Of a stretch of DNA of 64,000 nt, positions 27,780-42,372 are shown one piece after another. The stretch is from Dehalococcoidia bacterium. Lineage in GTDB: Bacteria; Chloroflexota; Dehalococcoidia; DSTF01; JALHUB01. The notes under the pieces were generated by a model that saw only the letters and a program-made list of their open reading frames with translations, was not told where the DNA came from and made no database searches. Numbering within the stretch: the stretch's first letter is position 1; every line of letters starts with the position of its first letter. The stretch is taken from contig JASEFU010000004.1 in NCBI GenBank assembly GCA_030018455.1, forward strand, positions 1-64,000, read 5' to 3'. Both the position numbers and the translations under genes were made by a program.

Positions 27780-30700
27780 TCACTGCTCCTTTCCGAATTC
27801 GAGCTTCGCGCAGGCCTTTCTTAGCGCGTCGTTAAGCTTTGCTAGCTGCTCCTGCGATGGCTCAGCACGCTGTCCCAACTCCAGGCGCAAGACGAAGCGC
27901 AGATCTAGCCCAGCGCCTGCGTTGACGATCTCAGGGAGACCATCTACCAGATCCTGGAGCTCGGCGGGTTCGAGTTCAGCCTCTGCCACGTGTCGCCTGG
28001 GGAATGATGGAGGTGGCGCCTCTTCCGGCACGCGCAGGCGCACATTCGTAGCCTCCGGCCAATCACACGGCCACGGCCCCGAATCCGGCGTGCGCTCCAA
28101 GAGCCGGCCGCGGATAGCCGCGTCGATGGCGGAGCGGACGATGGTCCAGGGCAGCGTCTTACCAGCAACGACAGAGAGGGCGTCACCGACCGAGGCCGCT
28201 GTGGTGACAGGGTCCCTCCATGCTGCCTCTAGGTTCTGGGGGAGCACGGCAGTGGCCGGGAGGTCTGTCGGGGGCGGGTGTAGCACCGCGGTCTCGCTCA
28301 GGACTCCGTAGGGAATTTCCTCGCGGTACAGGCTGGCCGGACCTGCCGTGAGCCAGACCGACCCCGCCCTGACCGCTTCGTGAATCGCTTCCTCCACAAC
28401 TTCTTTGGCTGCCCTGGGGACAGGGAAGACCTCTTCGTAGCCTTCGCGCATCACTTTGCACGTGTGGGATCCGTCGAAGAAGGACAATACATCGCCCACT
28501 GCTATCGATTCTGCCGCTTCCGGCCACAGTCCGGGCAGCGCGCCAGGGGCCAGGAGTCCCCCGTCAAGGTGTGTGAGCTCAGAGGCCTCAGGCAGAGCAA
28601 CCTCGAGGTCCCGCTCTGTAAGGTCATTCTCGGTAGGGTGAGACCGCCAGATGGTACGGACGCTCTTATCGGGACGCGTCAGACGCAGCACGAAGTATCC
28701 CTGTTGGCAGCCGAGGGCCAGCGTGTCGACAATATCCTTCTGTCGAAGCATCTTGGGTAGATGCGGGAACTGGGCGAAAGCGCGAGTTAGGTCACTCGCG
28801 CGCCGTGAGGTCTCCCCATCTCGCCAGAGCGCGTATGGACCATCGGGCAGGAGGGCCTCCGGGCTAATCGCTGATTCCTGGATTCGTGAGCGCTTGTCGT
28901 TCTTGATGGTTTCGAACACCGGCTCACTGTTGGGCGTGATCCGGAACGCCTCTACTTCGCCCTTGGCTGACACGGCGACCACGATGCAATAGGCTTGGAC
29001 GATGGCGTCGGGGATTCTCTTCCGGGCTTCATCGGTGTACGCCGCGAGCAGCGTCTTTCTGAGTTCGTCGAAGTCCTTCGCTTCTCGCAGATTCCTAACC
29101 TCTTCCCAGCCAAGATAGTCCCGTGCACGACTTCGCACTAGCTCAAGCCCATCTTTGGAAGGGACGACCAGTAGGATGGCGTTGCGGTACACGCGTGGCC
29201 GGTCAGGGCCCGTCGTCTCATCGATGAAGCGCCGTGCCTCTGAACTTGGCTTGCCGGACTCGGAGGCTGCTCGGGGACCGAGAACTACATAGTGAAACTC
29301 GCCGTCATCCTCGACGTCGCGGGGCCGCTCCGGTACGTTGTGCACCCGAGCACCAGCAGCCGAGGCGCCGGCAGTTAGACGTCTCTCCTTGGCGATCAGG
29401 TCCCGTATGCTCACCTCAATAACGTCCGCAGGCACGCGGGCGCAAGCATCGCTGTGCATCTGACGTAGGTTCGGCTTGGTCCCGAGACGCCACCACTTTG
29501 GCAACTCCTCTACCGATGCCGTGCCGTTGCCTCCGTTCGTCTCCGCAATCGCCGCCTCGTCAAGGAAGTAGGAGACCTCGGTCCACCGCCGCAACGCCTT
29601 TTCCAACTCGATCTTGTCCGCCTTTGCTGCTCCGAGCAGAACCAGCAGATCGCGGGTCAACGCTCGCTGGCCGATGGGCTGCGAGTGAAGGAAGGTTCCC
29701 ATCACAGCTTGTTCAACCTCGCGTTCCTTGAGTGCCCGAAACTCCTGCTGGACGTCACGGGCCTTCGCAAGCTCTCCCTCCAGGATGGCCGACCACTCCT
29801 GCCGCTTACCTTCGTACTCCTCCGTCGCAGCAATGGAGGCCAATTCGCGGGCCGCCTCAGAGAGACCGGTCTGACCCGGAGCGTTGAGGAGCACGTTCGT
29901 GCCGACCAACGGAGAGGTATCCCACTTCTCCGCGTCCCGAAGGGCCATGGCAAACGTCCGGAGCACTCCGCGGGTGCGCTGGAATCCCTCGAGCTGCGTC
30001 CACTTGGTATAGAACGCCTCGGTTAATTCAGGGTGGAAGGGGTAGCTGGCAAGGTAACGCTCCTCCTCCCCCTGCCGGTTCTTCCGCGTCCCCTCGTCCA
30101 GCGCCTGGATGCCGTCAAGGGCGGCGACCACGTGCGGACGGAACGTTTCCCGGTCGCGGATGGAATCGGCCGTGAAGAACCGACGGCGCAGCACCTCAGC
30201 CACATCCTGCTTCTCCACCGGCTGGACGCCCTCTTCTTTCTCTCGACGAAAGACGTCGTATAGCTCCTTGGCGATTTCCTTGCCGAGTTCGTCGCTCTTG
30301 CGCGGATCAGTGGCAAGCAGCGACGCGACGACGCACGCTCGGTCGACCTTGGTTGCCGCCTGGGTAAGGGCCTGGAAGAAGTCCTGGAGGCGGTGGCGCC
30401 ACTGCGGATCCAGGCCCACCTTCTCGCGGGCGAACATCAGCACCTCATCGATAAGCACGAGAGTGGTCAGCCCGTCCTTGGAGGGAAATGCCAGAAGATC
30501 CCGTAGTAGGTTCTCCGCCGGGGGAGCCTCGCGCTCCTCGTCCTTGTCTTCCGCATGGAGGAGACGCAGGCCATCCGCGCCGGCGATCTGGAAGGCGAGC
30601 ACGCTCCACGGGTGCCGGAGCCAACGCGACTCTCTGTTCGGTCCATGCACCTCCATCCCCTTCTCCACGTCCAGCTTATCGAAGCATAGAGCGGCGACGC

Positions 30701-31088
30701 GCGCCTTGGGCGGCGTGACGCCCCCTGCGTGCTGGATGAACTCGTGGATGGCGGGTAGGTCCGGCAGGCTTCCCGGCTCGTTCACCAGGTGATAGAGGGT
30801 GATGAGGGCGTGGGTCTTGCCGCCGCCGTAAGTCAGCTCTAGCTGACGCACGGCCTTCTCGTTCTTGCCCGCGAGCCGCTGTAGGACATCCTTGACCAGC
30901 TCCCGTAGGTTAAAGGTGGGGTATGTGAGGGCGAAGAACTGTTGGGGGTCTTGGTAAATCGGCCGCGCCCGTCCCATAACCACGTCGTACAGGTCGGCGG
31001 CGAAGATGCTGAGGGTGAGTTCACCCGTCCGGAGGTCGTCCCGCAAGGTCACGACCTGATGCCACGGCGTGTATGTTGACTTTACCAT
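27780..31088 (-). CDS. DUF499-family ATPase of a helicase-methylase-ATPase defence operon
   Basis: A 1102-residue protein. The N-terminal half is a DUF499 ATPase: TYGGGKTHALITLYHL (about 80-95) is the P-loop, and TTLVLIDEVLMFAREKVGL (about 210-228) is a Walker B/sensor segment. DUF499 ATPases resemble BREX BrxC/PglY in having a large STAND-like ATPase with long extensions. The C-terminal half has unrecognised alpha/beta regions (for example SIAVGDVLSFFDGSHTCKVM) plus a terminal domain ending in LRFVLRLELGQRAEP. ATG 31088 is used because it follows the methylase stop by one base with GGAGG upstream. It is last of the four tightly linked genes. It probably couples ATP hydrolysis to DNA surveillance with the DUF1156 methylase (inference). 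Confidence 0.85.
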   Translation of the reverse strand: MVKSTYTPWHQVVTLRDDLRTGELTLSIFAADLYDVVMGRARPIYQDPQQFFALTYPTFNLRELVKDVLQRLAGKNEKAVRQLELTYGGGKTHALITLYHLVNEPGSLPDLPAIHEFIQHAGGVTPPKARVAALCFDKLDVEKGMEVHGPNRESRWLRHPWSVLAFQIAGADGLRLLHAEDKDEEREAPPAENLLRDLLAFPSKDGLTTLVLIDEVLMFAREKVGLDPQWRHRLQDFFQALTQAATKVDRACVVASLLATDPRKSDELGKEIAKELYDVFRREKEEGVQPVEKQDVAEVLRRRFFTADSIRDRETFRPHVVAALDGIQALDEGTRKNRQGEEERYLASYPFHPELTEAFYTKWTQLEGFQRTRGVLRTFAMALRDAEKWDTSPLVGTNVLLNAPGQTGLSEAARELASIAATEEYEGKRQEWSAILEGELAKARDVQQEFRALKEREVEQAVMGTFLHSQPIGQRALTRDLLVLLGAAKADKIELEKALRRWTEVSYFLDEAAIAETNGGNGTASVEELPKWWRLGTKPNLRQMHSDACARVPADVIEVSIRDLIAKERRLTAGASAAGARVHNVPERPRDVEDDGEFHYVVLGPRAASESGKPSSEARRFIDETTGPDRPRVYRNAILLVVPSKDGLELVRSRARDYLGWEEVRNLREAKDFDELRKTLLAAYTDEARKRIPDAIVQAYCIVVAVSAKGEVEAFRITPNSEPVFETIKNDKRSRIQESAISPEALLPDGPYALWRDGETSRRASDLTRAFAQFPHLPKMLRQKDIVDTLALGCQQGYFVLRLTRPDKSVRTIWRSHPTENDLTERDLEVALPEASELTHLDGGLLAPGALPGLWPEAAESIAVGDVLSFFDGSHTCKVMREGYEEVFPVPRAAKEVVEEAIHEAVRAGSVWLTAGPASLYREEIPYGVLSETAVLHPPPTDLPATAVLPQNLEAAWRDPVTTAASVGDALSVVAGKTLPWTIVRSAIDAAIRGRLLERTPDSGPWPCDWPEATNVRLRVPEEAPPPSFPRRHVAEAELEPAELQDLVDGLPEIVNAGAGLDLRFVLRLELGQRAEPSQEQLAKLNDALRKACAKLEFGKEQ

Positions 31089-31089
31089 C

Positions 31090-34000
31090 CTACCCGCCTC
31101 CTTCGCGCGAGCCTTCAAGGTTGAGCCGCATCTGGGGATGGGCGCCGCGGGCGGCGACGTGGTTCATGACGGCCTCCAGGAGCGCCCGCTCCTCCGGCTG
31201 GTTGTCCTTGCGCGCCAGCTCGACCAGGGCCTGGAGCAGACGTGGGAAGAGCGCGTTTCCGCGAAGGCCACGGTCCTCGATGTAGGCGTCTACCTTCTGG
31301 ACGTCGCCCTCGCGCCAGAGGCGCATGATGCGGTGCACCTGGTCGATGAGCGGCGCCGGTCGGCCCTCCGCGTCCAGGCCCAGCGACTTGCCCCGGCGCT
31401 GGTCCCAGCGCTTGAGCCGCACCTTGCTACCGCTTCCCCGCTCCTCCGGCTCTTCGTCCCCCTCTTCGTCCTCTTCCTCCTCGTCCTCGGTTGCCGAGCC
31501 GCTGGTGAACGCGACGAGATCGTAGCGGTCGGCCAGGTCGCGGTCGCGGAGGCTGCACGACTGCGCGTAGAGGATGCAGGCACCGACTGGCGCCTCGGCG
31601 AAGCCGAAGTCGTGGCGGTGGAGCAGGTAGTAGATGGTCGGGTTATCCAGGCTGGCGGCCTCCTCGCTCTCGCCGTCGCGAGAGAGGACGCGGCCCACCA
31701 CGTAGTCCACCACGATACGGCGGACGTGGTGCAGAAACTCCGAGACGGTGAGGACGGCGTTGGGCTCGTCGGCTTTCTTGACCACGGGGTGCTTGCTGTA
31801 GGCCTCCAGGGCGGGGCCGGTGGCGGACCAGACGAAGTCCGGGCCACGGATGCCGGCGTCCCAGAAGTCGCGGAGCCGCTGATAGATGTTGGTGCGCATC
31901 TCCTCCAGCACCTGGGTGTCCCAGCCGGGCCGCGCCGTCTCCGGCCGCTTCCGGCATACGAGCCAGACGGATGAAGCCAGTGCCGCCGATCCATGTGCTC
32001 TTGATCTGTTGCTCATCTCTGTCTGAATAGGCCAACTTCCATTGACGACAAACCCGGCCCGAATCATTGAAGAGACCAATGTCTCCCAGGCTTCCGGCTG
32101 TTTGTTCGCGAAGACTATTACCATCTTTCCGTTTGGCTCCAGAACCTCTTGGCAAGCCCGAAATGCGCGAAACATGCCATCTTCGTATGCTGCCTTGGAT
32201 TGACGGGCATCGCCCCCAAAGCGGCTGGCATCGTCTATCAACTCCCCGTCATTTTGAGAGTGGTTCCACTTCGGGCCTAGTGCGTCTTGGAGCGCTGAAT
32301 CTGTTTGAGGTGAAAGACCGTACAAGGCTCGCCGAAGCCAGACATAAAAGAAATCCATCAGGTCCGAATAGGGAATAGCGTCATAGTAGGGAGGATCAGT
32401 GACGACGACGTCAAAGCAACCGACCTCAGGGCTTGTCGAAGCGGAACACGCAAGGGGTGTTGGCGCAGGCTTTCGCATGGCAGCGCTGGAGCAGTGTGCA
32501 GCGCACTCAGCAACCCACTCCAAGCAGGACAGGTAATTGCCTGTGGTGTCTGAAAGAGGATTGCCTTCACAGAAATCCCACAATATGGGTAATGCGAAGC
32601 GGGTGAACGTGCTGTTTACCTTTGTATAGCCCACGTCCCAGCGGCACAAAGCCGATGACCGATCCGCAAGTTTATCCACGCCGATGCCCAAGTACGCCCC
32701 CACCGCCTCCACCCACTCCGGCGGGTAGCCCTCGGCGCGCATGGCATCGCGGGCGGCACGCGTGTGCTTCACGAACGTGCCCAGGGCCACGAGCTGGCGC
32801 GGCGTGAAAAGCTTGTACCACTGGTCGAAGCCATAGAGCGGTACGCGAAAGCCCAGGGCCTCCTTGGTAGGCAGGGGCTCCGTCGGCAGTCCAAAGGGGA
32901 CATCCTGGAAGGTGGACTCGACGCAGCCGGTGGCCTCCTCGGCAGCGCGGAGCTCCTCGTTGGCGGGTAGGCGGTACTCCTTGCCCTTGGCCGCGTCCAC
33001 TACCACAGCGGTCATTTGCGCGCCAAGGTTCCCATTCATACCCTCGGCGCGGATGTCCTCCATGGTCATCGCCACAGTGCCGGGGCCGCCACAGACTGGG
33101 CACCAGGCGCCGGAACGGGACATGGTCCCCCGCCCCACACGGCGGTCGTGGGCGCGCTGCTGGGCGCCGTTCCCCCCCACCCTGGGTTCCTCCACCACCT
33201 CGAAGTCCACGCCGGAGCGGTCGGTCCGCGGCACGAGCTTCAGCCGGACACGCTTCTTCTCCTTGCGGCACAGCCACAGCGTTTTGAGCAGGGGCAAGGT
33301 GGCGCGGCAGTTCTTACAGGTGACGGTCCGCGCCCAGAGGTAGGCCACCGTCGGCTTCCCCTCCACCGTGGGGTAGAAGCGCTCCAGGTCGGCCCGGGCG
33401 CGCTGGAGCACCCAGTGGCCCCAGGCGCGCACGTGCCAGGCCAGGTCGGCCTCCGGCGGCTCCAGCATCTGCGCCTGCTGGCCCTCGTCCCTTCGTCCGC
33501 GCCCCTTCTTCGCCCTGCCGGTCTGCTTCAGGTACTCCGCCATGAACTCCGGCGACTCGAGCGCGAATTTCGGCAGCGGGCGCGTCTGGCCGGCGAGCCG
33601 TTGCGGATACTCCAGGGTGCACTTCAGGATGAACCACGCGACGGGATTGATGTCGATCGCCGTGGCCTCGCAGCCCAGTCGCATCGCCTCCAGGGGGATG
33701 GCCCCACCCCCGGCGAAGGGGTCGAGGACCCGGGGCGGGCGGCCATAGACCTTACGGATCTCCTCGCGGAAGAACTCGAGGTCGGGCCCATTCTCGCGTC
33801 CCCAGTGGAGGATGCCGCCGACCGTCTCCTCCTTCACCACCGGCACCTCGCGGCCGCCGACGCGCTTGGTGGTGTTCTTGGTCACGACCTTGCCGCCGAG
33901 CCGCTCGAGGAGGCGCTGGCGTTCGACGTTGTTGCCGGGGTCGGGCAGGAGCGTGGCGATGAGGGCCGCGCGGCAGGCGGCCAGCGGGCGTCGCGCCGGC

Positions 34001-34119
34001 CAGATGTGGAGCGTCGAGATGTGGCCGTGGCGCACGTTCTTCTCGTGCACGGAGTCCAGCGACGCCTGCTTCAGCGGGAACGCGACTTCGATGAGGCGAG
34101 GGCGGTCGTCAAGGGTCAT
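31090..34119 (-). CDS. DUF1156 adenine-specific DNA methyltransferase
   Basis: A 1009-residue protein starting MTLDDRPRLIEVAFPL, with the DUF1156 N terminus (VRHGHISTLHIWPARRPLAA, about 30-49). The SAM-binding motif is VLDPFAGGGAIPLEAMRLG (about 135) and the catalytic motif is VVTDPPYYDAIPYSDLMDF (about 575), so the order of motifs is that of N6-adenine (or N4-cytosine) methylases. Zinc-ribbon-like pairs CKNC...CRKE and CPVCGG lie at about 272-350. An acidic Glu-rich linker lies near 885-905. Such methylases are found beside DUF499 ATPases and SNF2 helicases in defence islands. The start overlaps the DUF3800 stop by 4 bases (ATGA) with AGGAGACCCC upstream. Target sequence unknown. Confidence 0.88.
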   Translation of the reverse strand: MTLDDRPRLIEVAFPLKQASLDSVHEKNVRHGHISTLHIWPARRPLAACRAALIATLLPDPGNNVERQRLLERLGGKVVTKNTTKRVGGREVPVVKEETVGGILHWGRENGPDLEFFREEIRKVYGRPPRVLDPFAGGGAIPLEAMRLGCEATAIDINPVAWFILKCTLEYPQRLAGQTRPLPKFALESPEFMAEYLKQTGRAKKGRGRRDEGQQAQMLEPPEADLAWHVRAWGHWVLQRARADLERFYPTVEGKPTVAYLWARTVTCKNCRATLPLLKTLWLCRKEKKRVRLKLVPRTDRSGVDFEVVEEPRVGGNGAQQRAHDRRVGRGTMSRSGAWCPVCGGPGTVAMTMEDIRAEGMNGNLGAQMTAVVVDAAKGKEYRLPANEELRAAEEATGCVESTFQDVPFGLPTEPLPTKEALGFRVPLYGFDQWYKLFTPRQLVALGTFVKHTRAARDAMRAEGYPPEWVEAVGAYLGIGVDKLADRSSALCRWDVGYTKVNSTFTRFALPILWDFCEGNPLSDTTGNYLSCLEWVAECAAHCSSAAMRKPAPTPLACSASTSPEVGCFDVVVTDPPYYDAIPYSDLMDFFYVWLRRALYGLSPQTDSALQDALGPKWNHSQNDGELIDDASRFGGDARQSKAAYEDGMFRAFRACQEVLEPNGKMVIVFANKQPEAWETLVSSMIRAGFVVNGSWPIQTEMSNRSRAHGSAALASSVWLVCRKRPETARPGWDTQVLEEMRTNIYQRLRDFWDAGIRGPDFVWSATGPALEAYSKHPVVKKADEPNAVLTVSEFLHHVRRIVVDYVVGRVLSRDGESEEAASLDNPTIYYLLHRHDFGFAEAPVGACILYAQSCSLRDRDLADRYDLVAFTSGSATEDEEEEDEEGDEEPEERGSGSKVRLKRWDQRRGKSLGLDAEGRPAPLIDQVHRIMRLWREGDVQKVDAYIEDRGLRGNALFPRLLQALVELARKDNQPEERALLEAVMNHVAARGAHPQMRLNLEGSREGGG

Positions 34120-34820
34120 TGGGGTCTCCTGCTTGATGAAGGCTCTTGGTAGTCAAAGAGCCATATTTTTGCGCTATATCCACGATGTGTGTCTAGTGTT
34201 TCAGTAACATGAGAGGCAACTCGATTTGCCAAGCAACGTTTCGGCTCCGCTATCGATCCGTCAGCTGACGCGGTAATGGCACCTAGCAATACGTCGGTCA
34301 ATTGAATAAGGTCGTTAGATCTGGATTCCTCAACAACATTCAACTTATAGATGTTGCGACCTTCCAACCCCCAACTTCCACGCCTAGACTTGTTTATTCG
34401 ATACCACAGACCTGCCCAGCGTGAGCGGCGTCGAAGGCTTACGCCGTCGACCCAGACATAGCACCCCGTGCGTGGAGGTACGACTCTCATAAGAAAATGC
34501 CTGTATACGTTGAAGAAGCCTTCCTCTCTTCGCCTACTTATCGACGAACGCGGCGCTCGCATCACCAAAAAGCGACATGCCTTATCCCCTAGAAACACCT
34601 CAACCCATTCCTGGTACGCGTTCAGGAACTTTCTTGAAACTTTAGTCCACTTCATCTCTGCCGTGAGTTTTTCTTTCGTCCTGATACTTGCCAACTTTTC
34701 ACGGATAATCTCGGAGCGCCTGTAAGAACAGCGCAGGCAACCCAGGTAGATATACGGGCTTCCATGCATGCCCGTCTCGTCACAGAATATAGCGGGAACA
34801 TAAGGAAATCCTGTAGGCAT
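34116..34820 (-). CDS. DUF3800-like protein inserted in the defence operon
   Basis: A 234-residue protein. IFCDETGMHGSPYIYLGCLRC near the N terminus matches the DUF3800 hallmark 'DESG followed by a beta strand', and further acidic residues occur at WVDGVSL (about 123) and in SNDLIQLTDVLLGAITAS (about 175-190). DUF3800 is thought to have an RNase H-like fold, so a nuclease role is plausible but untested. It is AT-richer than its neighbours, suggesting separate acquisition. The start codon shares a base with the helicase stop (TAATG), and its stop overlaps the methylase start. I do not recall this gene as a fixed part of helicase-methylase-ATPase systems. Confidence 0.65.
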   Translation of the reverse strand: MPTGFPYVPAIFCDETGMHGSPYIYLGCLRCSYRRSEIIREKLASIRTKEKLTAEMKWTKVSRKFLNAYQEWVEVFLGDKACRFLVMRAPRSSISRRREEGFFNVYRHFLMRVVPPRTGCYVWVDGVSLRRRSRWAGLWYRINKSRRGSWGLEGRNIYKLNVVEESRSNDLIQLTDVLLGAITASADGSIAEPKRCLANRVASHVTETLDTHRGYSAKIWLFDYQEPSSSRRPQ

Positions 34821-37800
34821 TAGATTGTGTCCTCTGCCGCCTCAAACACGCTTGCCTCGTCTATCACCACGCCTCCTTTAGCCCGCACCAGGAGCTTCGC
34901 AAAGGGGTCTCGAATGCGCAAGAGCCGCGGGTGGGTAGCGGCGCAGTCGTACACAACGTAGAGCCAGTACTGCTGGCGCAGATTGGCGGCCTGGGCCCAC
35001 TCGTTCTCGGAGAGCTGGACATCGCCCACGGCGCGACGGCCCTTCACCTCGATGCACCGCTCTTCTCCGTCAGATCGGCGCGAGAGGAGGTCGAAGCCCA
35101 CCTTCTGGAGAGGATCGGACACATCGTGCACGGTAGCGCCCAGGGATTCCTCATAGGCCCGCGCCACGCGCATCGCTATCTGCTCGATCTCGCGGTCATG
35201 GCGTTCGCGCTCGTCGGGATCGCTGGACGGCAGTACCAGGGCGTGGGCCAGGAAGGCGATGCCGTTGGCGTCAACGAGTTCCGGCTCCCGGCGCAGGATC
35301 GCGAGGGCGCGGTCCCGCTGGACAGCCAGATCCGTCTGCTTTCTGCGCACCTCTTCCAGCGCCCGCCGCGCCGGGGCGTCGCCGGCGTCCGCCCGCTCCC
35401 GCAAGCGGGTTCGGGTCCCGAGGAGCTCCGCCTCCTGGTAGTCGAATCCCGCTTGCAGGAACGCCTCCCGCTCCGGGATCGAAGCGGCGAGGCCAGCGGC
35501 GATCCGCTCGGCCGCAGGACGCGCGATGGTGTCCATAAGATGCGCTCTGGCGGCTTCGATGGCTTCCGTGACCTGACCCATGGGCGGCAGGGCTGTGGGC
35601 GGCACCCGCTTCGCAAGCTGAAGGACCATGGGTAGCTCGACAGGGCAGGCGCATGTCGTCCCGTCGAAGGTCTGCGTAATGGCAGCCAGCCGCACGTCGA
35701 GCGTCTGTTCTGACCCAAAGGCTTCAGGGTAGTCCGGGTCGGCGCGGCGCACCGTAGAGACGAGGGCCAGGTGGTAAAGGTAGGGCTCCGTGGCGTAGGG
35801 ATCGATGAAGGCAGCGCCACGGAGCGCGTCTGCTGCAAAGCGTTCAGAGAAGAAGGCCCGATAACGGTCGAAGAACGGCTCGCCCGGCCGCAAGAACAGG
35901 ACATCATCGGTCGGTTCCGGCTTGTTGACGGTCAGAGGGAGTGCCATGCCGCCCGTCGCGTCCTCCATCGCTAGCGTAAGAGGGAGCGGCAAGCGTTTGA
36001 GCCAGAACCGGCCGTCCAAATCGCCTTCGATGTTCACCCCAAGGTAGGGCGCGGACTTCTCCAGAAAGTGTCTGACGTAACCGGGGAGTAGCCGATGCAG
36101 CTGGTCCTGGTCCCGCTGCGCCCGAAGCGTGGGAAGCTGCGACGCGACGTCGCCGCCTGTGGCGCGAAGCTTCGCGTCGGCCTCCTCGATGGCTGTCACC
36201 TGCTCCTTAGTAAGGGTGCCTTCGATCTTGGCGATACTCTCATCCTCTTCGCCCTCCACCACAGCCCTCATGATGAGCTCGCTCAGGGAGATGCCTTGGA
36301 ACTGCCGGCCGATCACGTCGAACACCTTGTCGGACCCCAGTTCCCTGCGAATGCGTTCGAGCTTTTCCAGCAGCGTCCTGAGAACCCTACCCTCACGTGT
36401 CTTCCCTGCCACCAGGTTGATAAGAACGACGGGATCATGCCGTTGCTTATAGCGGTGGATCCGGCCCATACGCTGCTCAATACGGGCGGGGTTCCAGGGG
36501 ATGTCGTAGTTCACCATGATCCAGCAGAACTGGAGGTTGATGCCCTCGCCTGCGGCGTCGGTCGCCACCATGAACCGGCAGCGGGTCCGAAACGCCTCCA
36601 TCTGAGCCTCGCGCTCCTGGTAGGGCATCCCACCGTGGATGCGCGCGATCTCCTCTGTGTAACCCATCCCCTCCAGGCGACGGACCAGGAACTCCATGGT
36701 GTCCCGATGCTCGGTGAAGATCAGTAGCTTCTCTCCCTTGAACCGCTCATCGTGGATGACTTCCCGCAGCTTCTCGAACTTCGACTCGTCCCCCGTCTCA
36801 TGGGCGCGCTGCGCAAGGTCCAGGAGTTGCAGCACCTCCAGTCGCTCCGCCTCGAGTTCCGCCAGGGTCGTGGCAGCGGTGGCGCCCATGGCTGCTTCCT
36901 CAGCGACATCCCGCGCCTCCCGCCCATCCTCAGGCTCTTCCTCCTCGCTGGTCATCTCCTCTTCGATGTCGCGGAGCCTGAGGCGTGCTTGCTCCGCTGC
37001 GAGCCGCTCCTCGGTCAGCTCCCGGACAGAGAAGGCCCGAATGTATTCGCCCAGCCGGTCGCGTCGCCGCTCCAGCGACCGAAGCAGGGCCCAGGTGGAA
37101 CTCGCGGCGCGGCGCTGTAGGACGCTCATCGCGAGCCGAGCGGCCGAGCGGTTTAGAAAGCGGGCTCGGTTGAAGTGCGTGCGCACGTAGGAGGTCAACT
37201 GGTCATAGAGCTCCTTTTCCACGGGGGAAAGATCATAGTTGACGGTTGTGCTTTCTCGAGACGGGTAAAGACGGCTCCCGTCGAACCGCACCATTTCCTC
37301 CTTCGTGCGGCGGACAAAGTGCCGCGCCCTCGCCTCAGGGGGGAAGCTGTTGAATGCATCGACCGTTTTCAGCGCGTTCGGCTCTAGCAGCCGCCATAGG
37401 GCGTAGTACGGAAAGTCTTTCCCCATGTGGGGAGTAGCAGTCAGTAACAGCAGGTGGTGCGCGTGCCATGAGAGGTGGCGCGGCGGGTGGCTCTCCTGCA
37501 GCGGCTCCGCGCCCGCTAGAAGTTCAGCCAGCTTGTAGCGGTCGGTCGTCTCGTAGGTGCCATCGGCGTTCCTGATAGCTGTCAGTTTGTGAGCCTCGTC
37601 GAAGACCACCAGGTCATAGGGCACAGTGTGAGGTTGAGCCAACCGCTCGTAGGCCCGATCGGCGGCTAGAGTGTCGACGCTCACTACCACGAGGTCGCTT
37701 CCTGGGCCTGAAAACGGGTTGTCAGTCCGACAGTCGAAGCCTGTTACCTCTCGACAATGCAACGAGAACAGAACCCGCATCTCGCGCTTCCAGTTCCCGA

Positions 37801-38368
37801 CAAGGCCAGCTGGAGAGACGATGAGTACGCGACGTACTAAGTGCCGGCTCAGCATTTCCCGCACATACAAGCCAGCCATGATCGTCTTCCCTGCCCCGGC
37901 ATCGTCCGCAAGGAGCATGCGGAGGCGAGGCTGAGTCAGCATCCTCTGATAGACCGCAATAATCTGGTGCGGGAGCGGGTCGATGAGGGCGGTCTCGGTG
38001 CCGAACGTTGGGCTGAAGAGATGACCGTAGCGGAGACGCTCGCCCTCCACGAACAGGCGGACCAGTCCGGGGTCAACCCTGAAGTCGGGGCTTGGCCATT
38101 GGCCCGCCGCAGCGTATACGGCCAACGGCTCGCCAACGCGGGCGTGCCCAAGCCGGCGATCCACGTTCCCAAGGGCCGTTGTTGCACTCGCCGCCAGCGT
38201 GGTCAGCGCCTTGACGGCAAGCCTGTTCGGGCGCGACTGGCCATTCTCCCACCGACTGATCGTGACTACCGTCACGCCTAGACGCTCGGCGAGTTGGCTT
38301 TGCGTAAGCCCTAGCTCAGTCCGAAGACCTCTGATCCACTCTGGTGAACCGACAGAAGCGGTAACCAT
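34820..38368 (-). CDS. XRE-SNF2 helicase with C-terminal DUF3883 domain
   Basis: A 1182-residue protein with three parts. Residues about 10-65 are an XRE/Cro-type helix-turn-helix (LGLTQSQLAERLGVTVVTISRWENG). An SNF2/SF2 helicase follows with Walker A LADDAGAGKTIMAGL (about 155), VVFDEAHKL (about 255) and the C-terminal motifs DAAGEGINLQF and EQRMGRIHRYKQ (about 600-640). A C-terminal domain (about 1075-1170) with CIEVKGRRAVGDVQLSENEW is DUF3883, a PD-(D/E)xK-related NERD-like module. ATG 38368 has AGGGGGC upstream and a good promoter. It is first in the operon. The added DNA-binding head could bind the operon's own promoter or guide the helicase; neither is shown. Confidence 0.88.
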   Translation of the reverse strand: MVTASVGSPEWIRGLRTELGLTQSQLAERLGVTVVTISRWENGQSRPNRLAVKALTTLAASATTALGNVDRRLGHARVGEPLAVYAAAGQWPSPDFRVDPGLVRLFVEGERLRYGHLFSPTFGTETALIDPLPHQIIAVYQRMLTQPRLRMLLADDAGAGKTIMAGLYVREMLSRHLVRRVLIVSPAGLVGNWKREMRVLFSLHCREVTGFDCRTDNPFSGPGSDLVVVSVDTLAADRAYERLAQPHTVPYDLVVFDEAHKLTAIRNADGTYETTDRYKLAELLAGAEPLQESHPPRHLSWHAHHLLLLTATPHMGKDFPYYALWRLLEPNALKTVDAFNSFPPEARARHFVRRTKEEMVRFDGSRLYPSRESTTVNYDLSPVEKELYDQLTSYVRTHFNRARFLNRSAARLAMSVLQRRAASSTWALLRSLERRRDRLGEYIRAFSVRELTEERLAAEQARLRLRDIEEEMTSEEEEPEDGREARDVAEEAAMGATAATTLAELEAERLEVLQLLDLAQRAHETGDESKFEKLREVIHDERFKGEKLLIFTEHRDTMEFLVRRLEGMGYTEEIARIHGGMPYQEREAQMEAFRTRCRFMVATDAAGEGINLQFCWIMVNYDIPWNPARIEQRMGRIHRYKQRHDPVVLINLVAGKTREGRVLRTLLEKLERIRRELGSDKVFDVIGRQFQGISLSELIMRAVVEGEEDESIAKIEGTLTKEQVTAIEEADAKLRATGGDVASQLPTLRAQRDQDQLHRLLPGYVRHFLEKSAPYLGVNIEGDLDGRFWLKRLPLPLTLAMEDATGGMALPLTVNKPEPTDDVLFLRPGEPFFDRYRAFFSERFAADALRGAAFIDPYATEPYLYHLALVSTVRRADPDYPEAFGSEQTLDVRLAAITQTFDGTTCACPVELPMVLQLAKRVPPTALPPMGQVTEAIEAARAHLMDTIARPAAERIAAGLAASIPEREAFLQAGFDYQEAELLGTRTRLRERADAGDAPARRALEEVRRKQTDLAVQRDRALAILRREPELVDANGIAFLAHALVLPSSDPDERERHDREIEQIAMRVARAYEESLGATVHDVSDPLQKVGFDLLSRRSDGEERCIEVKGRRAVGDVQLSENEWAQAANLRQQYWLYVVYDCAATHPRLLRIRDPFAKLLVRAKGGVVIDEASVFEAAEDTI

Positions 38369-38396
38369 CTGCCCCCTGACGAAGTAGACTTAACAA

Positions 38397-38425
38397 ACTA
38401 TAACATCCGCCACAGTCAATTTCAA
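38397..38425 (-). promoter_or_regulatory. Promoter of the helicase/DUF3800/DUF1156/DUF499 operon
   Basis: On the minus strand TTGAAA (38425-38420) and TATAGT (38402-38397) are 17 bases apart, and transcription would start about 20-25 bases before the helicase ATG. A direct repeat TGTTA-N5-TGTTA (38405-38391) overlaps the -10, at a helical-turn spacing that would suit a regulatory protein such as the helicase's own XRE domain (inference). Confidence 0.55.
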
Positions 38426-38709: not shown

Positions 38710-39455
38710 CTACCCCCGTTCCTCATAGGGACGTCCGGTCTTCACCACGAAATAGGCGATGGTCAGCAGCTTGCGTGCCAGCGCTGTTATCGCCGTCTGC
38801 GATCCGTGCCGCGCCTGGATGCGTCGGTACTACTGCCCCGGCGAACGCTGGTTCTGGCCCGTCCTAGCCGCTGCCTCGGTGAAGGTCCACCTCAGCAAGG
38901 AGGAGCCTTGCTGGTGATGTGTCCGAGATGCACCCTGCCGCCTGAGGCCCGTACCCGAGGGGCCAGGCCGGCAAAGGACACCAACTTCGCCGCATCTGGG
39001 AACCTGTGGAGACCCCTAACCTCGGCCAGGAAAAGCAGGGCAGTGAGGGGCCCAATGCCTGGGATAGTCATGAGCAGCCTGGCTCTGGGGTCTTGCCGGG
39101 CCTGGCCGTAAACCTCCGCCGTCACCTCCCGAACATCAGCCTGCAGCGAGTCCAGAATGGCGAGATAACGTTCCACAATCCGTCGGTGCCCCCTCAAGAG
39201 AGGCTGGCGAAGATAGGTGAGGTCCTCCTTCAGGGCGTCTACCTGTACGCAGTGCTGTCTGACGAAGCGACGTTGCGGTCTCCAGAGCAACACGGTGGGC
39301 CAGAACGGACTGCTGGTGACGCGAGGCTCGAGGCAGCGCCGGATGACAGGACCTGCGAAGGCCGACGCGAGACGCAGGGCCCTTCTGGGGATGGTGCTTC
39401 GGCATGTGGCTAACAGGTGTAAGGCGCATGACTGCTTGCATCGGCCGTGGCCCAA
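38710..39455 (-). pseudogene. IS110-family transposase remnant
   Basis: The minus strand encodes the C-terminal Transposase_20 domain of an IS110-type enzyme: LLMTIPGIGPLTALLFLAEV, then FPDAAKLVSFAGLAPRVRAS and GRVHLGHITSK. After a frameshift near 38895 the tail (LLRWTFTEAAARTG, an in-frame TAG near 38850, then TALARKLLTIAYFVVKTG and a stop at 38710) continues the family ending. The N-terminal DEDD catalytic half is not recognisable, so the element is dead. IS110 elements lack terminal inverted repeats, and no ends could be defined. Confidence 0.75.
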
Positions 39456-39484
39456 TGCTAGTATTGATGCGACACCATAGTGTC
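39436..39484 (+). promoter_or_regulatory. Promoter and palindromic operator of the VapBC-like pair
   Basis: TTGCAT (39436-39441) and TAGTAT (39459-39464) with a 17-base spacer predict a start near 39471. A palindrome GACAC-CATA-GTGTC (39471-39484) covers that start. This is the expected place for an operator bound by a ribbon-helix-helix antitoxin. It also disfavours translation from the upstream ATG at 39467. Confidence 0.45.
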
Positions 39485-39496
39485 ATAGAGAGCGCA

Positions 39497-39841
39497 GTGG
39501 CCAGGATCACCCTTCGACTCCCGGACGACCTGCACCGGCGCCTGCATGATGCCTGCCGGCGAACGGGCAACTCGCTGAATCAGACTATCGTAGCGGCCCT
39601 AGCGCAGGCGCTCGGTCGTGGCGATCAGGTGCCCGAAAGGAATAGCGCCCTCATGGAGCAGCTATCGCATATCAAAACGGCCCTGGGGGAAATAACAGTG
39701 GACATCGAGGTCAGCCGCTTCCCGGCCCAGTTTCCTCCTGAGGAGGAAATGCCGAGCCGTGAGGAGCTGGTCGCGTTGCTGCCCACGCTGTCTCCTCCCC
39801 TGTCTTCGACCATTTTGGAGGAGCGGAGAGAACGCGTCTGA
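39497..39841 (+). CDS. Ribbon-helix-helix antitoxin (VapB-like)
   Basis: A 114-residue protein beginning VARITLRLPDDLHRRLHDACRR, an RHH/Arc-type DNA-binding N terminus (basic beta strand RITLRLP, then helix-NS-helix around TGNSLNQTIVAALAQAL). The longer C-terminal tail, rich in Pro, Glu and Leu, would wrap the toxin. GTG 39497 is chosen over ATG 39467 because the predicted transcription start and operator lie between them, and AGAGAG sits just upstream. It ends 4 bases before the PIN-domain gene. Antitoxins of this type neutralise the toxin and repress their own promoter. Confidence 0.7.
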   Translation: MARITLRLPDDLHRRLHDACRRTGNSLNQTIVAALAQALGRGDQVPERNSALMEQLSHIKTALGEITVDIEVSRFPAQFPPEEEMPSREELVALLPTLSPPLSSTILEERRERV

Positions 39842-39845
39842 ACCG

Positions 39846-40310
39846 ATGCCGCTGCACTATCTGGACACGAGCGCCCTGGTCAAACGATACCTGCCGGAAC
39901 CAGGCTCGGGTTGGGTCAACTCGCTGGTCTCGTCCGAGCCTGTCGCGGTTCCACTGCTGGCTGCTGTTGAGCTGGCGTCAGCGCTGGCCCGCCGAACGCG
40001 TGAAGGTGACTTGACTTCGGAACAGCGGGACATTGTGTTCCGCTCCTTCGTTGCTGACGCCAGGGAGTACGTGATGCTGGCGGTAACGCAGGGCGTTACA
40101 GAGGACGCTGCTTCCATGCTCCTCACAAGTCCACCCTCGGTGGCGCTGCGAACGTTGGACGCGCTTCACCTGGCGGGGGCGCGCGTGGCCTTCGCCAACG
40201 CTCGACGGCGCGGCCTGGAGACTGGAGCCTTCGTAACCGCAGACAGGGCGCTGGCTCAAGCCGCAGCCTGGGCTGGGCTGACCGCGATCAACCCGGAAGA
40301 TTACGCGTGA
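39846..40310 (+). CDS. PIN-domain toxin (VapC-like)
   Basis: A 154-residue PIN-domain RNase. The conserved acidic residues are in MPLHYLDTSALVKRYLPE (Asp 7), AVELASALARRTREG (Glu about 39), LRTLDALHLAGA (Asp about 102) and FVTADRALAQAA (Asp about 124). VapC toxins cleave tRNA or rRNA and halt growth; the target here is unknown. It is paired with the RHH antitoxin 4 bases upstream and probably stabilises the island. It ends 32 bases before the recombinase ATG. Confidence 0.85.
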   Translation: MPLHYLDTSALVKRYLPEPGSGWVNSLVSSEPVAVPLLAAVELASALARRTREGDLTSEQRDIVFRSFVADAREYVMLAVTQGVTEDAASMLLTSPPSVALRTLDALHLAGARVAFANARRRGLETGAFVTADRALAQAAAWAGLTAINPEDYA

Positions 40311-40342
40311 CCGACGAGAATGGGACCAGAGGAGGCACAGAC

Positions 40343-41983
40343 ATGAGGTGTGCGATCTACACCAGAGTCTCCACGGACGAACAGGCGAGGAGCGAATACA
40401 GTTCGCTGGAGCGACAGAAAGAAGTATGCGCCAGCTACATCGAAATCCAGAAAGAAAAAGGCTGGCATCTCGCTGGCGTCTACGAGGATGGCGGCTAGTC
40501 TGGGAAAGATCTCAGCCGCCCGGGCCTTCAAGAACTCCTGCAGGACGTCAGGGACCGCAAGATTGACGTCGTGGTCACCTACAAGATTGACCGCATCTCG
40601 CGGTCTCTGAAGGATTTCTACGAGTTCTGGGAGGTGCTGAAGGAGCACGGCGTCTCGTTCGTCTCGGCGACGCAGCACTTCGACACCTCGGACTCGACTG
40701 GAATGCTCATGCTGAACATCCTCCTCAGCTTCGCCCAGTTCGAGCGGGAGCTCACGAGGGAGAGAACGCTGAGCAAGATGGCGGGCCGGGCAGAAAGGGG
40801 ATTGTGGAACGGCGGCTACGTGCCCATCGGATTTGACTATTCGCGGCAGACCCAGCAGCTTCGGCGCAACGAGCGTGAGGCCGAGACCGTAACATTCGTC
40901 TTTCGGCGTCTGGTCGAGACCCGTTCTCCCCGCGCGGTAGCCAACGAGGCCAACAGCCTCGGTTACCGAACGAAGATGCGCACCGTCGTTAGGCGCCAAG
41001 GGTCCAGCCAAGAGGTAGGTGGTAAGCGCTTCGACGAGGACACGGTGAAGGCGATTGTGCGCAACCCCATCTACAAAGGCTTTATCCGCTACAACGGCGA
41101 CCTCTACCCGGGCAACCACGAACCCATCGTCGATCAGGAGACCTGGGAGCAAGCGAATAGAGCTATCGGGAATGGCCGAGAGGGCAACGGCCTCCACTAC
41201 AAGGATGACCATGTGCACCTCTTGAAGGGCATCCTGCGGTGCGGCGCGTGTGGACTGGCAATGACTCCGTATCCTTCGGGTAAGAAGACGAAAGACGGGA
41301 GGCCCTACCTGTACTACGCATGCACTTCCGTAACACAGGACGGCAGCCACTCGGGGTGTTCGGTGCGCGCCTTGCCGGCACGGGAGTTCGAAGCCCTAAT
41401 CAAGCAGGTTCTGACCGACCTCGGCAACAACCCCAGCATCCTCCAGGCGTGCGTGGATGCCGCCAATCGCGACGCGACTCGGTCGTTGACCTCTTTGAAA
41501 AAAGAGCAACGCCGGCACCAGGAGGAGATCGGCGACTTGACGGTCGGTATCCGGCGTATCGTCGAGGTTATGAAGCAGGAGGACATGCTCTCCGAGGACG
41601 TGCGAGAAGAGTACAAGCAACTCGTGCGGGAGAAGGAGCGGCTCCTCGCCTTGTGCGAGAAGCTGCAACTCGACATCGAGCGGCGACAGAAACGGGTCCT
41701 GGACGCGGAAATCATCCGCCGGAGTCTCCAGGACTTCGAGAGGCTAGTGAACCTGCTTCCCCTGGAGGACCAGAAGGAGCTGTTCCAGCTGCTAATCCGG
41801 GAGGTGGAGGTCCACCCGTTCGACCCCTCCAAGGAGAAGTTGCCGAAGGCCCGTGGAGCGTTCGCGACGAGGGTGCGCTCGAAGTGGTACCGAGTCAACG
41901 TGACCCTGCACCATCTTCCAGGGGTGGACCTGGGAGAGCGGGCCTACGTTGTGAGTTCGGATAATGAGAGAACTGGCTCCCCG
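40343..41983 (+). pseudogene. Large serine recombinase with an in-frame TAG and a frame that crosses the attachment site
   Basis: Starting at ATG 40343 (GAGGAGG upstream), MRCAIYTRVSTDEQARSEY contains the resolvase catalytic Ser and RVSTDEQ motif. At 40496-40498 a TAG interrupts the otherwise collinear VYEDGG-stop-SGKDLSRPGLQELL; family members have an aromatic or other residue here, and the same frame resumes without shift. It continues through ITYKIDRISRS-like and FAQFERELTRERT motifs, a recombinase DNA-binding domain, a zinc ribbon (CGACG...C), and a coiled coil (about 395-480). The frame has no stop before tRNA-Asn; beyond 41984 it reads tRNA genes backwards to 42361, which is not credible protein. 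Either a dead enzyme or one needing amber readthrough. Confidence 0.8.
41974..41983. repeat. Inferred attR core inside tRNA-Asn
   Basis: TGGCTCCCCG, the complement of the tRNA-Asn 3' end including CCA, matches 18287-18296 in the same orientation. It lies within the open recombinase frame. Confidence 0.6.
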
Positions 41984-42049
41984 AGCAGGACTCGAACCTG
42001 CAACCTAGCGGTTAACAGCCGCCCGCTCTACCGATTGAGCTATCGGGGA
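41974..42049 (-). tRNA. tRNA-Asn (anticodon GTT)
   Basis: Acceptor TCCCCGA pairs with TCGGGGA, discriminator G, encoded CCA; D arm TAGCTCAAT; anticodon loop CTGTTAA giving GTT; T loop TTCGAGT. It is the inferred integration target of the island and remains complete after insertion. Confidence 0.97.
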
Positions 42050-42075
42050 GCGCCGATGTGGAACGATCCGTATTC

Positions 42076-42149
42076 TGGCTGCCGAGCCAGGACTCGAACC
42101 TGGACTAAGGGATCCAAAGTCCCTGGTGCTACCATTACACCACTCGGCA
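42076..42149 (-). tRNA. tRNA-Gln (anticodon TTG)
   Basis: Acceptor TGCCGAG pairs with CTCGGCA, discriminator G, encoded CCA; anticodon stem AGGGA/TCCCT around CTTTGGA giving TTG; T loop TTCGAGT. Confidence 0.97.
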
Positions 42150-42205
42150 GCGACTTCGCGACATCAATAAGGCGGGCTCATCCCCGCCTTGCTCCCGAGC
42201 GCGGT

Positions 42206-42294
42206 TGGTGCCGAAGGCCGGGATCGAACCGGCACGGGGGTCGCCCCCCAACAGTTTTTGAGACTGTCGCGTCTACCAATTCCGCCACTTCGGC
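42206..42294 (-). tRNA. tRNA-Leu (anticodon CAA)
   Basis: Acceptor GCCGAAG pairs with CTTCGGC, discriminator A, encoded CCA. The anticodon stem ACAGT/ACTGT encloses CTCAAAA giving CAA, and a long GC-rich variable arm of class II tRNA follows. Confidence 0.96.
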
Positions 42295-42297
42295 GTT

Positions 42298-42372
<75 letters not shown>

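Follow-up and report, generated by a model that had tools for sequence, protein, structure and literature searches.

A four-gene operon on the minus strand of a Dehalococcoidia bacterium genome (2.38 Mb) was analysed within a stretch of 64,000 nucleotides (contig JASEFU010000004.1, positions 1 to 64,000; hereafter the window), where it occupies positions 38368-27780. As judged from sequence, the core of this locus is the known helicase-methylase-ATPase system Hma of PADLOC, and the locus belongs to a clade in which the helicase, HmaA, carries an N-terminal XRE helix-turn-helix (HTH) domain and for which a conserved palindrome, the proposed operator, was found in front of hmaA. We consider it likely that the locus is a restriction-modification (R-M)-like anti-phage operon of this XRE-hmaA clade, that HmaA represses its own operon and that a DUF3800 gene, lying between the helicase and methylase genes, is carried as semi-independent cargo. 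The features concerned are as follows.

34820..38368, minus strand: hmaA, encoding an XRE HTH, Snf2 helicase and NOV_C PD-(D/E)XK protein of 1182 amino acids (Pfam, PADLOC, motifs)
38210..38338, minus strand: XRE HTH domain at the N terminus of HmaA, residues 11-53 (Pfam HTH_3, AlphaFold2 model, PDB relatives)
34922..35191, minus strand: NOV_C (formerly DUF3883) nuclease-like domain of HmaA, GFD...EVKGR (Pfam E value 4.5e-20; motif conserved in 60/60)
34116..34820, minus strand: DUF3800 gene, RlfA-like (PDC-M04A), predicted RNase H-fold nuclease of 234 amino acids (Pfam, PADLOC, residues, AlphaFold2 model)
31090..34119, minus strand: hmaB, DUF1156 amino-methyltransferase with a DPPY motif, 1009 amino acids (Pfam, PADLOC, motif)
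27780..31088, minus strand: hmaC, DUF499 AAA+ ATPase, 1102 amino acids from ATG 31088 (Pfam, PADLOC, motif)
38397..38425, minus strand: promoter with -35 TTGAAA (38425-38420), 17-nucleotide spacer and extended -10 TGTTATAGT (TATAGT 38402-38397) (promoter scan, sister loci)
38390..38405, minus strand: operator-like element TGTTATAGTTTGTTAA over the -10, made up of the clade palindrome's right half-site and, after it, TTTGTTAA (shared k-mer)

The XRE domain of HmaA and the proposed operator before its gene

Relatives of the locus were collected in two surveys. The first covered 400 Chloroflexota genomes, of which 121 matched HmaB and the 80 strong ones were examined; the second was a methylase-alignment scan of the genome collection, in which the best 80 of 337 relatives, together with earlier loci, gave 85 loci. 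An AlphaFold2 model of the first 150 amino acids of HmaA was all-helical, with no beta-barrel and with predicted local distance difference test (pLDDT) values of 96-98 over the HTH, and the PDB relatives of the domain were MqsA and the 434 and P22 repressors. HTH_3 was matched by Pfam in 50 of 59 helicase N-termini, and a domain profile detected XRE in 51/60 complete helicases near that of the window but in 0/30 of the more distant Hma helicases. The initial annotation had called the XRE-helicase fusion unusual; the fusion is present, but within its clade it is the common state.

A tree of the methylases, which is independent of helicase sequence, placed every XRE row inside a single HmaB clade (59 rows, of which 51 have XRE; support 100) and none outside it. 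The XRE-less rows of this clade comprised two truncations at contig edges, three rows whose N-termini are short and a trio that has decayed, and no separate small XRE gene was found beside hmaA in XRE-less clade members. In the nearest outgroup, L073, a different, non-HTH N-terminus is joined at the same point, which suggests that one domain has replaced another. Named XRE loci came from at least 11 phyla. A scan of viral contigs for HmaB returned 2 loci only and phage records gave no helicase match, from which it is concluded that these systems are mainly cellular; plasmid matches to the helicase were more distant and none covered the XRE region.

Repeated ATAAC..GTTAT palindromes were seen when the regions upstream of hmaA were scanned, and palindromic expectation maximization on 50 upstream regions yielded the consensus TATARCANNTGYTATA before XRE-type hmaA, with a log-likelihood of 265 as against 30-37 in shuffles. 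The motif matrix was constrained to be symmetric and its own symmetry is no evidence; single sites are often near-perfect palindromes, for example TATAACATATGTTATA and TATATCATGTGATATA. Counting exact palindromes upstream reached 5 loci at most, a criterion too strict to reveal the operator. A site scoring 12 bits or more with a matrix built from the motif sites lay ahead of the HTH in 40/51 XRE loci compared with 0/33 XRE-less loci, clade members that had lost XRE included (Fisher p 4e-14, relatedness ignored), and only 2 matches occurred elsewhere in ~0.95 Mb. Leave-one-out analysis with a narrower search window recovered the operator in 31/50, and the frozen matrix found it at 18-24 bits in 5/5 further XRE-hmaA loci, which came from Pseudomonadota and viral contigs and of which three are near relatives of each other. 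In four whole genomes (G356, G400, G401 and G403), the sole exact or best site was that before hmaA. The distribution of the operator points to a dedicated single-site autoregulator, and XRE-HmaA probably controls its own production. This matching operator, which appears to be the purpose of the XRE domain, had been overlooked in the initial annotation. Neither the XRE-HmaA clade nor its operator was found in the texts consulted; supplements and a 2024 preprint on embedded genes may already describe some of it.

Taken as a clade, XRE-hmaA loci have a conserved operator-like site at their own promoter; in the window the site is divergent and subclade-specific. The 16-mer TGTTATAGTTTGTTAA is identical in the window and in loci L083, L075 and L065, the remaining upstream region being unalignable; the longest k-mer common to these four was 16, compared with 5-7 in 300 shuffles, and the element is unique in the 2.38-Mb genome when up to 2 mismatches are allowed. 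The recognition helix reads SRWENG in the window subclade and NRWENG in most of the clade, a difference that may reflect joint drift of site and helix.

The Hma core and the layout of the operon

Four minus-strand open reading frames (ORFs) were confirmed in the order helicase, DUF3800, methylase and ATPase at the positions given by the initial annotation, with helicase/DUF3800 and DUF3800/methylase junctions (TAATG and ATGA) that read as CTAATGCC and CAATGACC and a methylase/ATPase junction TAGGATG. The listed ORF of the ATPase starts at TTG 31118; ATG 31088 lies one base past the methylase stop with GAAGGAGGCGGG just before it, and is the likely start of hmaC rather than the longer TTG form. 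That one good promoter serves the operon also proved sound: TTGAAA-17-TATAGT with an extended -10 was the top-scoring promoter of the region, TTG and TATAGT recur at equal spacing in sister loci, and the promoter surroundings are conserved there.

Pfam matched the helicase with HTH_3 (residues 11-53, E value 2.3e-12), SNF2-rel, Helicase_C and NOV_C (residues 1060-1149), and the remaining three proteins with DUF3800 (36 bits, cut-off 21), DUF1156 and DUF499. The Hma models of PADLOC were the best for all three core proteins (HmaA 543, HmaB 405 and HmaC 273 bits), the runner-up for the helicase being DrmD at 346 bits, and hmaC adjoins hmaB, as the Hma definition requires. Among clade helicases, Walker A, DEAH and Snf2 motifs are kept in 59-60/60 and the NOV_C motif GFD...EVKG in 60/60 (F in 58); the methylase DPPY was present in 85/85, with DPPYYDAIPY conserved, and the ATPase Walker A (GGGKT) in 70/70, with GGGKT and DEV conserved in 67-70/70. 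The A-B-C gene order was found again in ~85 loci of the methylase-based survey, and since this order recurs and the catalytic motifs are intact, the arrangement is not due to chance.

The system was defined as Hma in PADLOC (Payne et al. 2021, PMC8565338), and the same family has been named Type-1 BREX-Related (BR), related to type 3 BREX (Rakesh and Krishnan 2026, PMC12839542); XRE and DUF3800 are both unmentioned in the main text of the latter. The initial annotation was right about a helicase-methylase-ATPase operon of defence type, a fused XRE domain and an RNase H-fold DUF3800 gene in place, and wrong or too strong on two points, as the core is not undescribed and the four genes are no fixed system. 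PglZ was absent from the window's genome in a search whose positive control responded, which rules out a Type-3 BR or BREX identity. As for Type-2 BR features, DUF3780 was not matched in a search whose control was silent, and the HKD domain was absent from the Pfam scan of the helicase.

The DUF3800 gene and the variable junctions of Hma operons

The junctions between Hma genes are frequently occupied. More than 300 bp separate A from B in 57/77 loci and B from C in 42/77, and at least one junction was filled in 55/70 loci with both junctions visible. Pfam showed the cargo to be very diverse (OLD/AAA_21 ATPases, Schlafen AlbA_2, SMODS, TIR, AbiJ, DUF4276, Mrr and others), and PADLOC matches included AriA, PtuA, GajA and Hma-embedded candidates (HEC). 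DUF3800 accounted for 3/96 A-B cargo proteins, namely those of the window, L063 and an alphaproteobacterium (L129), which fall into two unrelated subfamilies; this is an enrichment over ~1e-4 per gene, a rough background. DUF3800 occurred anywhere in 27/80 strong Chloroflexota genomes and beside HmaB only in G356, between A and B (JABTUD010000001, 'Thermoflexaceae bacterium'). No pairwise similarity was detected between the DUF3800 proteins of L063 and the window, although their HmaB proteins are 63% identical, so the slot has been filled with DUF3800 at least twice. By the neighbourhood survey, DUF3800 is an occasional cargo of a variable junction and not, as had been claimed, part of a four-gene variant; it is neither routine nor confined to a single locus, and XRE is routine in a named system. 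The gene probably represents a second, semi-independent defence effector rather than a core subunit, most likely expressed under the same control as the Hma core.

The claim of an RNase H-like DUF3800 protein encoded between helicase and methylase, and overlapping both, was upheld by coordinates, Pfam and fold. In its AlphaFold2 model (pLDDT 79) the elements follow an RNase H-like order, with RNase HII as the best PDB fold (E value 3.9e-5, template modelling score ~0.46), and D14, E15, D125, Q173 and D176 are conserved in both DUF3800 subfamilies. DUF3800 has been described as an RNase H fold that is accessory in some CRISPR loci (PMC10910872, PMC12669027). A sequence search of the PDB with DUF3800 gave nothing useful, and an Rfam scan of the window for DUF3800-associated RNAs found none. 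The protein matches PADLOC PDC-M04A (E value 9e-26) and is 21% identical to RlfA of phage P1, whose RlfA and RlfB are PADLOC PDC-M04A and PDC-M04B; further relatives are accessory genes of other phages or prophages and copies dispersed in chromosomes. No RlfB partner is adjacent, the junction leaving no room, and none was matched in the genome, in a search whose control was silent. Because it is without RlfB, the window gene is regarded as an RlfA homologue and not as the PDC-M04 system. In L178 (G338, same class), a type I R-M operon of the order HsdM-HsdS-RlfA-RlfB-HsdR includes an RlfA-RlfB pair. The genome of the window holds a second DUF3800 gene at G000:C1:708719-709300 (L001).

Other cargo was seen in the surveyed loci. 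A recurrent family of ~420 amino acids, often with a neighbouring gene of ~200 amino acids, fills 19 cargo positions (L100-L152, mostly B-C), and Pfam matches of B-C cargo are mostly AAA_21/OLD-like. In L065 (4908-8017), a close relative, the A-B slot contains HicAB-like and MqsA-like toxin-antitoxin genes and a nucleotidyltransferase whose sequence looks CD-NTase-like by eye. Directly past Hma in the window lies a type I R-M operon of HsdM, HsdS, DUF3644 and HsdR (25594-18996, minus strand), with DUF3644 embedded between HsdS and HsdR. A DUF3644 homologue (E value 4e-61) is cargo in the A-B slot of L145, and from these sequences Hma and type I R-M operons appear to exchange cargo of the same families.

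Between the two operons (27727-25700, minus strand), an SbcD/YhaO-like metallophosphatase begins 52 bp past hmaC, and after it comes a disrupted ATPase frame that has a Walker A motif (GPNESGKST); this pair was not found beside the other Hma loci surveyed. On the other side, positions 38892-42361 hold a fragment of an IS110-type transposase, a pair resembling a toxin-antitoxin system in which the toxin is of PIN type, and a large serine recombinase that extends to a four-tRNA cluster at 41974-42372. An integrated defence island likely has its edge here; no att-site repeats of at least 16 bp were found around the tRNA cluster within the window.

A model of self-regulation and its relation to known systems

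By analogy with their families, HmaB would mark self DNA by amino-methylation, HmaC, a DUF499/BrxC-like ATPase, would assemble a scanning complex, and HmaA, with its Snf2 motor and C-terminal PD-(D/E)XK domain, would attack unmarked DNA. The operator suggests that the XRE domain of HmaA may bind the site over its own promoter and keep the whole operon, cargo included, at a low level; we would guess that repression is lifted once HmaA is drawn onto foreign DNA. In the extended form of this model, the system would sense for itself in many phyla, HmaA leaving its promoter for invading DNA and thereby amplifying the restriction complex and any unrelated defence gene present as cargo, so that the operon would be an infection-inducible carrier of embedded defence modules. 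That extension is put forward tentatively, being possible but doubtful.

Several points weigh against the proposal of an autoregulated operon with an effector as cargo. The clade palindrome is absent from the window at up to 3 mismatches, its left half having decayed to 8 bits, and the 16-mer of the window could be just an extended -10 promoter to which no XRE domain binds. The 51 XRE loci are related, so the Fisher p overstates their independence, and the operator threshold and search window were set on the same data, the five hold-out loci excepted. Some cargo ORFs may have been mis-called. The nuclease activity of DUF3800 is predicted from its model, and a demonstrated defence role of RlfA was not found in the texts consulted.

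Two other explanations concern the XRE domain and its motif. The domain might be a target-recognition module that steers the helicase-nuclease to a phage DNA sequence, with the promoter palindrome incidental; HmaA is, after all, the effector, and the helicases of Type-1 BR bear an N-terminal domain of binding type, Tudor (PMC12839542). This seems improbable, since a phage-targeting domain needs no conserved site before hmaA, whereas the palindrome is restricted to that position, is missing from XRE-less hmaA loci, has only the two matches elsewhere and is essentially the only strong site in the four whole genomes. It is equally hard to favour a plain promoter element unrelated to XRE. The right half, TGYTATA, does resemble an extended -10 (TGnTATA) and is itself the -10 of the window promoter, but a promoter has no need of near-perfect palindromes and the 33 XRE-less hmaA promoters are all without the motif.

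For DUF3800, the tight overlaps on both sides and the same position in L063 and L129 would suit a fixed four-gene variant in which it is a core part working with methylase and helicase. We regard this as highly improbable: 82/85 loci were without DUF3800 among the junction cargo scanned, the copy in L063 is unlike that of the window for all the similarity of their methylases, and dozens of unrelated genes occupy the same slot. A neutral passenger or phage-derived moron without a defence role is a somewhat better candidate, if still an unlikely one, as RlfA-like genes are common phage accessories (flanked, for instance, by lysis and antitermination genes) and the genome search with the silent control returned no RlfB partner. 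Set against this, the DUF3800 gene retains its open frame and catalytic residues and is translationally coupled to the genes on either side, and the family is enriched in the slot by the rough estimate above.

Autoregulation by HmaA would bear on how dangerous effectors are restrained in R-M-like and BREX-like systems, a question that XRE-HmaA opens to testing with a single protein and a single site of 16 bases. If true, it would also account for the sharing of one safe, regulated operon by cargo genes as varied as these. In annotation, models of HmaA should extend over the XRE domain, and DUF3800/RlfA gains a defence context in both Hma and type I R-M operons.

R-M systems have their own controllers, namely C proteins and autoregulatory methyltransferases with an N-terminal HTH of the M.SsoII/M.EcoRII type, in which, as proposed here, a DNA-binding protein or module encoded by the system controls its promoter. 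RptR is similarly encoded with its system and controls its promoter (PMC12255303). XRE-HmaA differs from all of these in that the effector helicase-nuclease itself carries the module as a fusion.

Hma itself, the embedding of extra defence genes and DUF3800 as an RNase H-fold accessory are already known. The window gene is homologous to RlfA of the RlfA/RlfB pair of phage P1 (PDC-M04), but has no RlfB with it, and its setting is Hma rather than a phage or, as in L178, the neighbourhood of RlfB. Accessory defence genes embedded in Hma operons were reported by Payne et al. 2024, as cited in PMC12988326 and PMC12255303. The Hma-embedded candidates of that preprint on guilt-by-embedding (doi 10.1101/2024.01.29.577857), as described in those two papers, are likewise extra defence genes between Hma genes, and HEC models match some of the cargo described above; the window DUF3800, however, matches PDC-M04A and no HEC model, and the DUF3800 genes of L063 and L129 match no PADLOC model. 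With Hma of PADLOC the locus has its three core families and their A-B-C order in common. It differs in that the PADLOC HmaA match starts at residue 96, past the XRE domain, in its extra gene between A and B, and in the amino-methyltransferase motif DPPY of its methylase, where PMC8565338 gives a 5-methylcytosine function. With Type-1 BR (PMC12839542) it shares a DUF499 ATPase, a DUF1156 N6-type methyltransferase, a genome without PglZ and a Snf2 helicase with a C-terminal PD-(D/E)XK domain, the last represented in all 60 clade helicases by the NOV_C sequence motif, whose activity is predicted. Type-1 BR is described with an N-terminal Tudor domain; Pfam and AlphaFold2 found no such domain in residues 1-150 of HmaA, which consist of the XRE HTH and helices only. 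Because its N-terminus is XRE and not Tudor, the locus is filed under Hma rather than under Type-1 BR in the strict sense.

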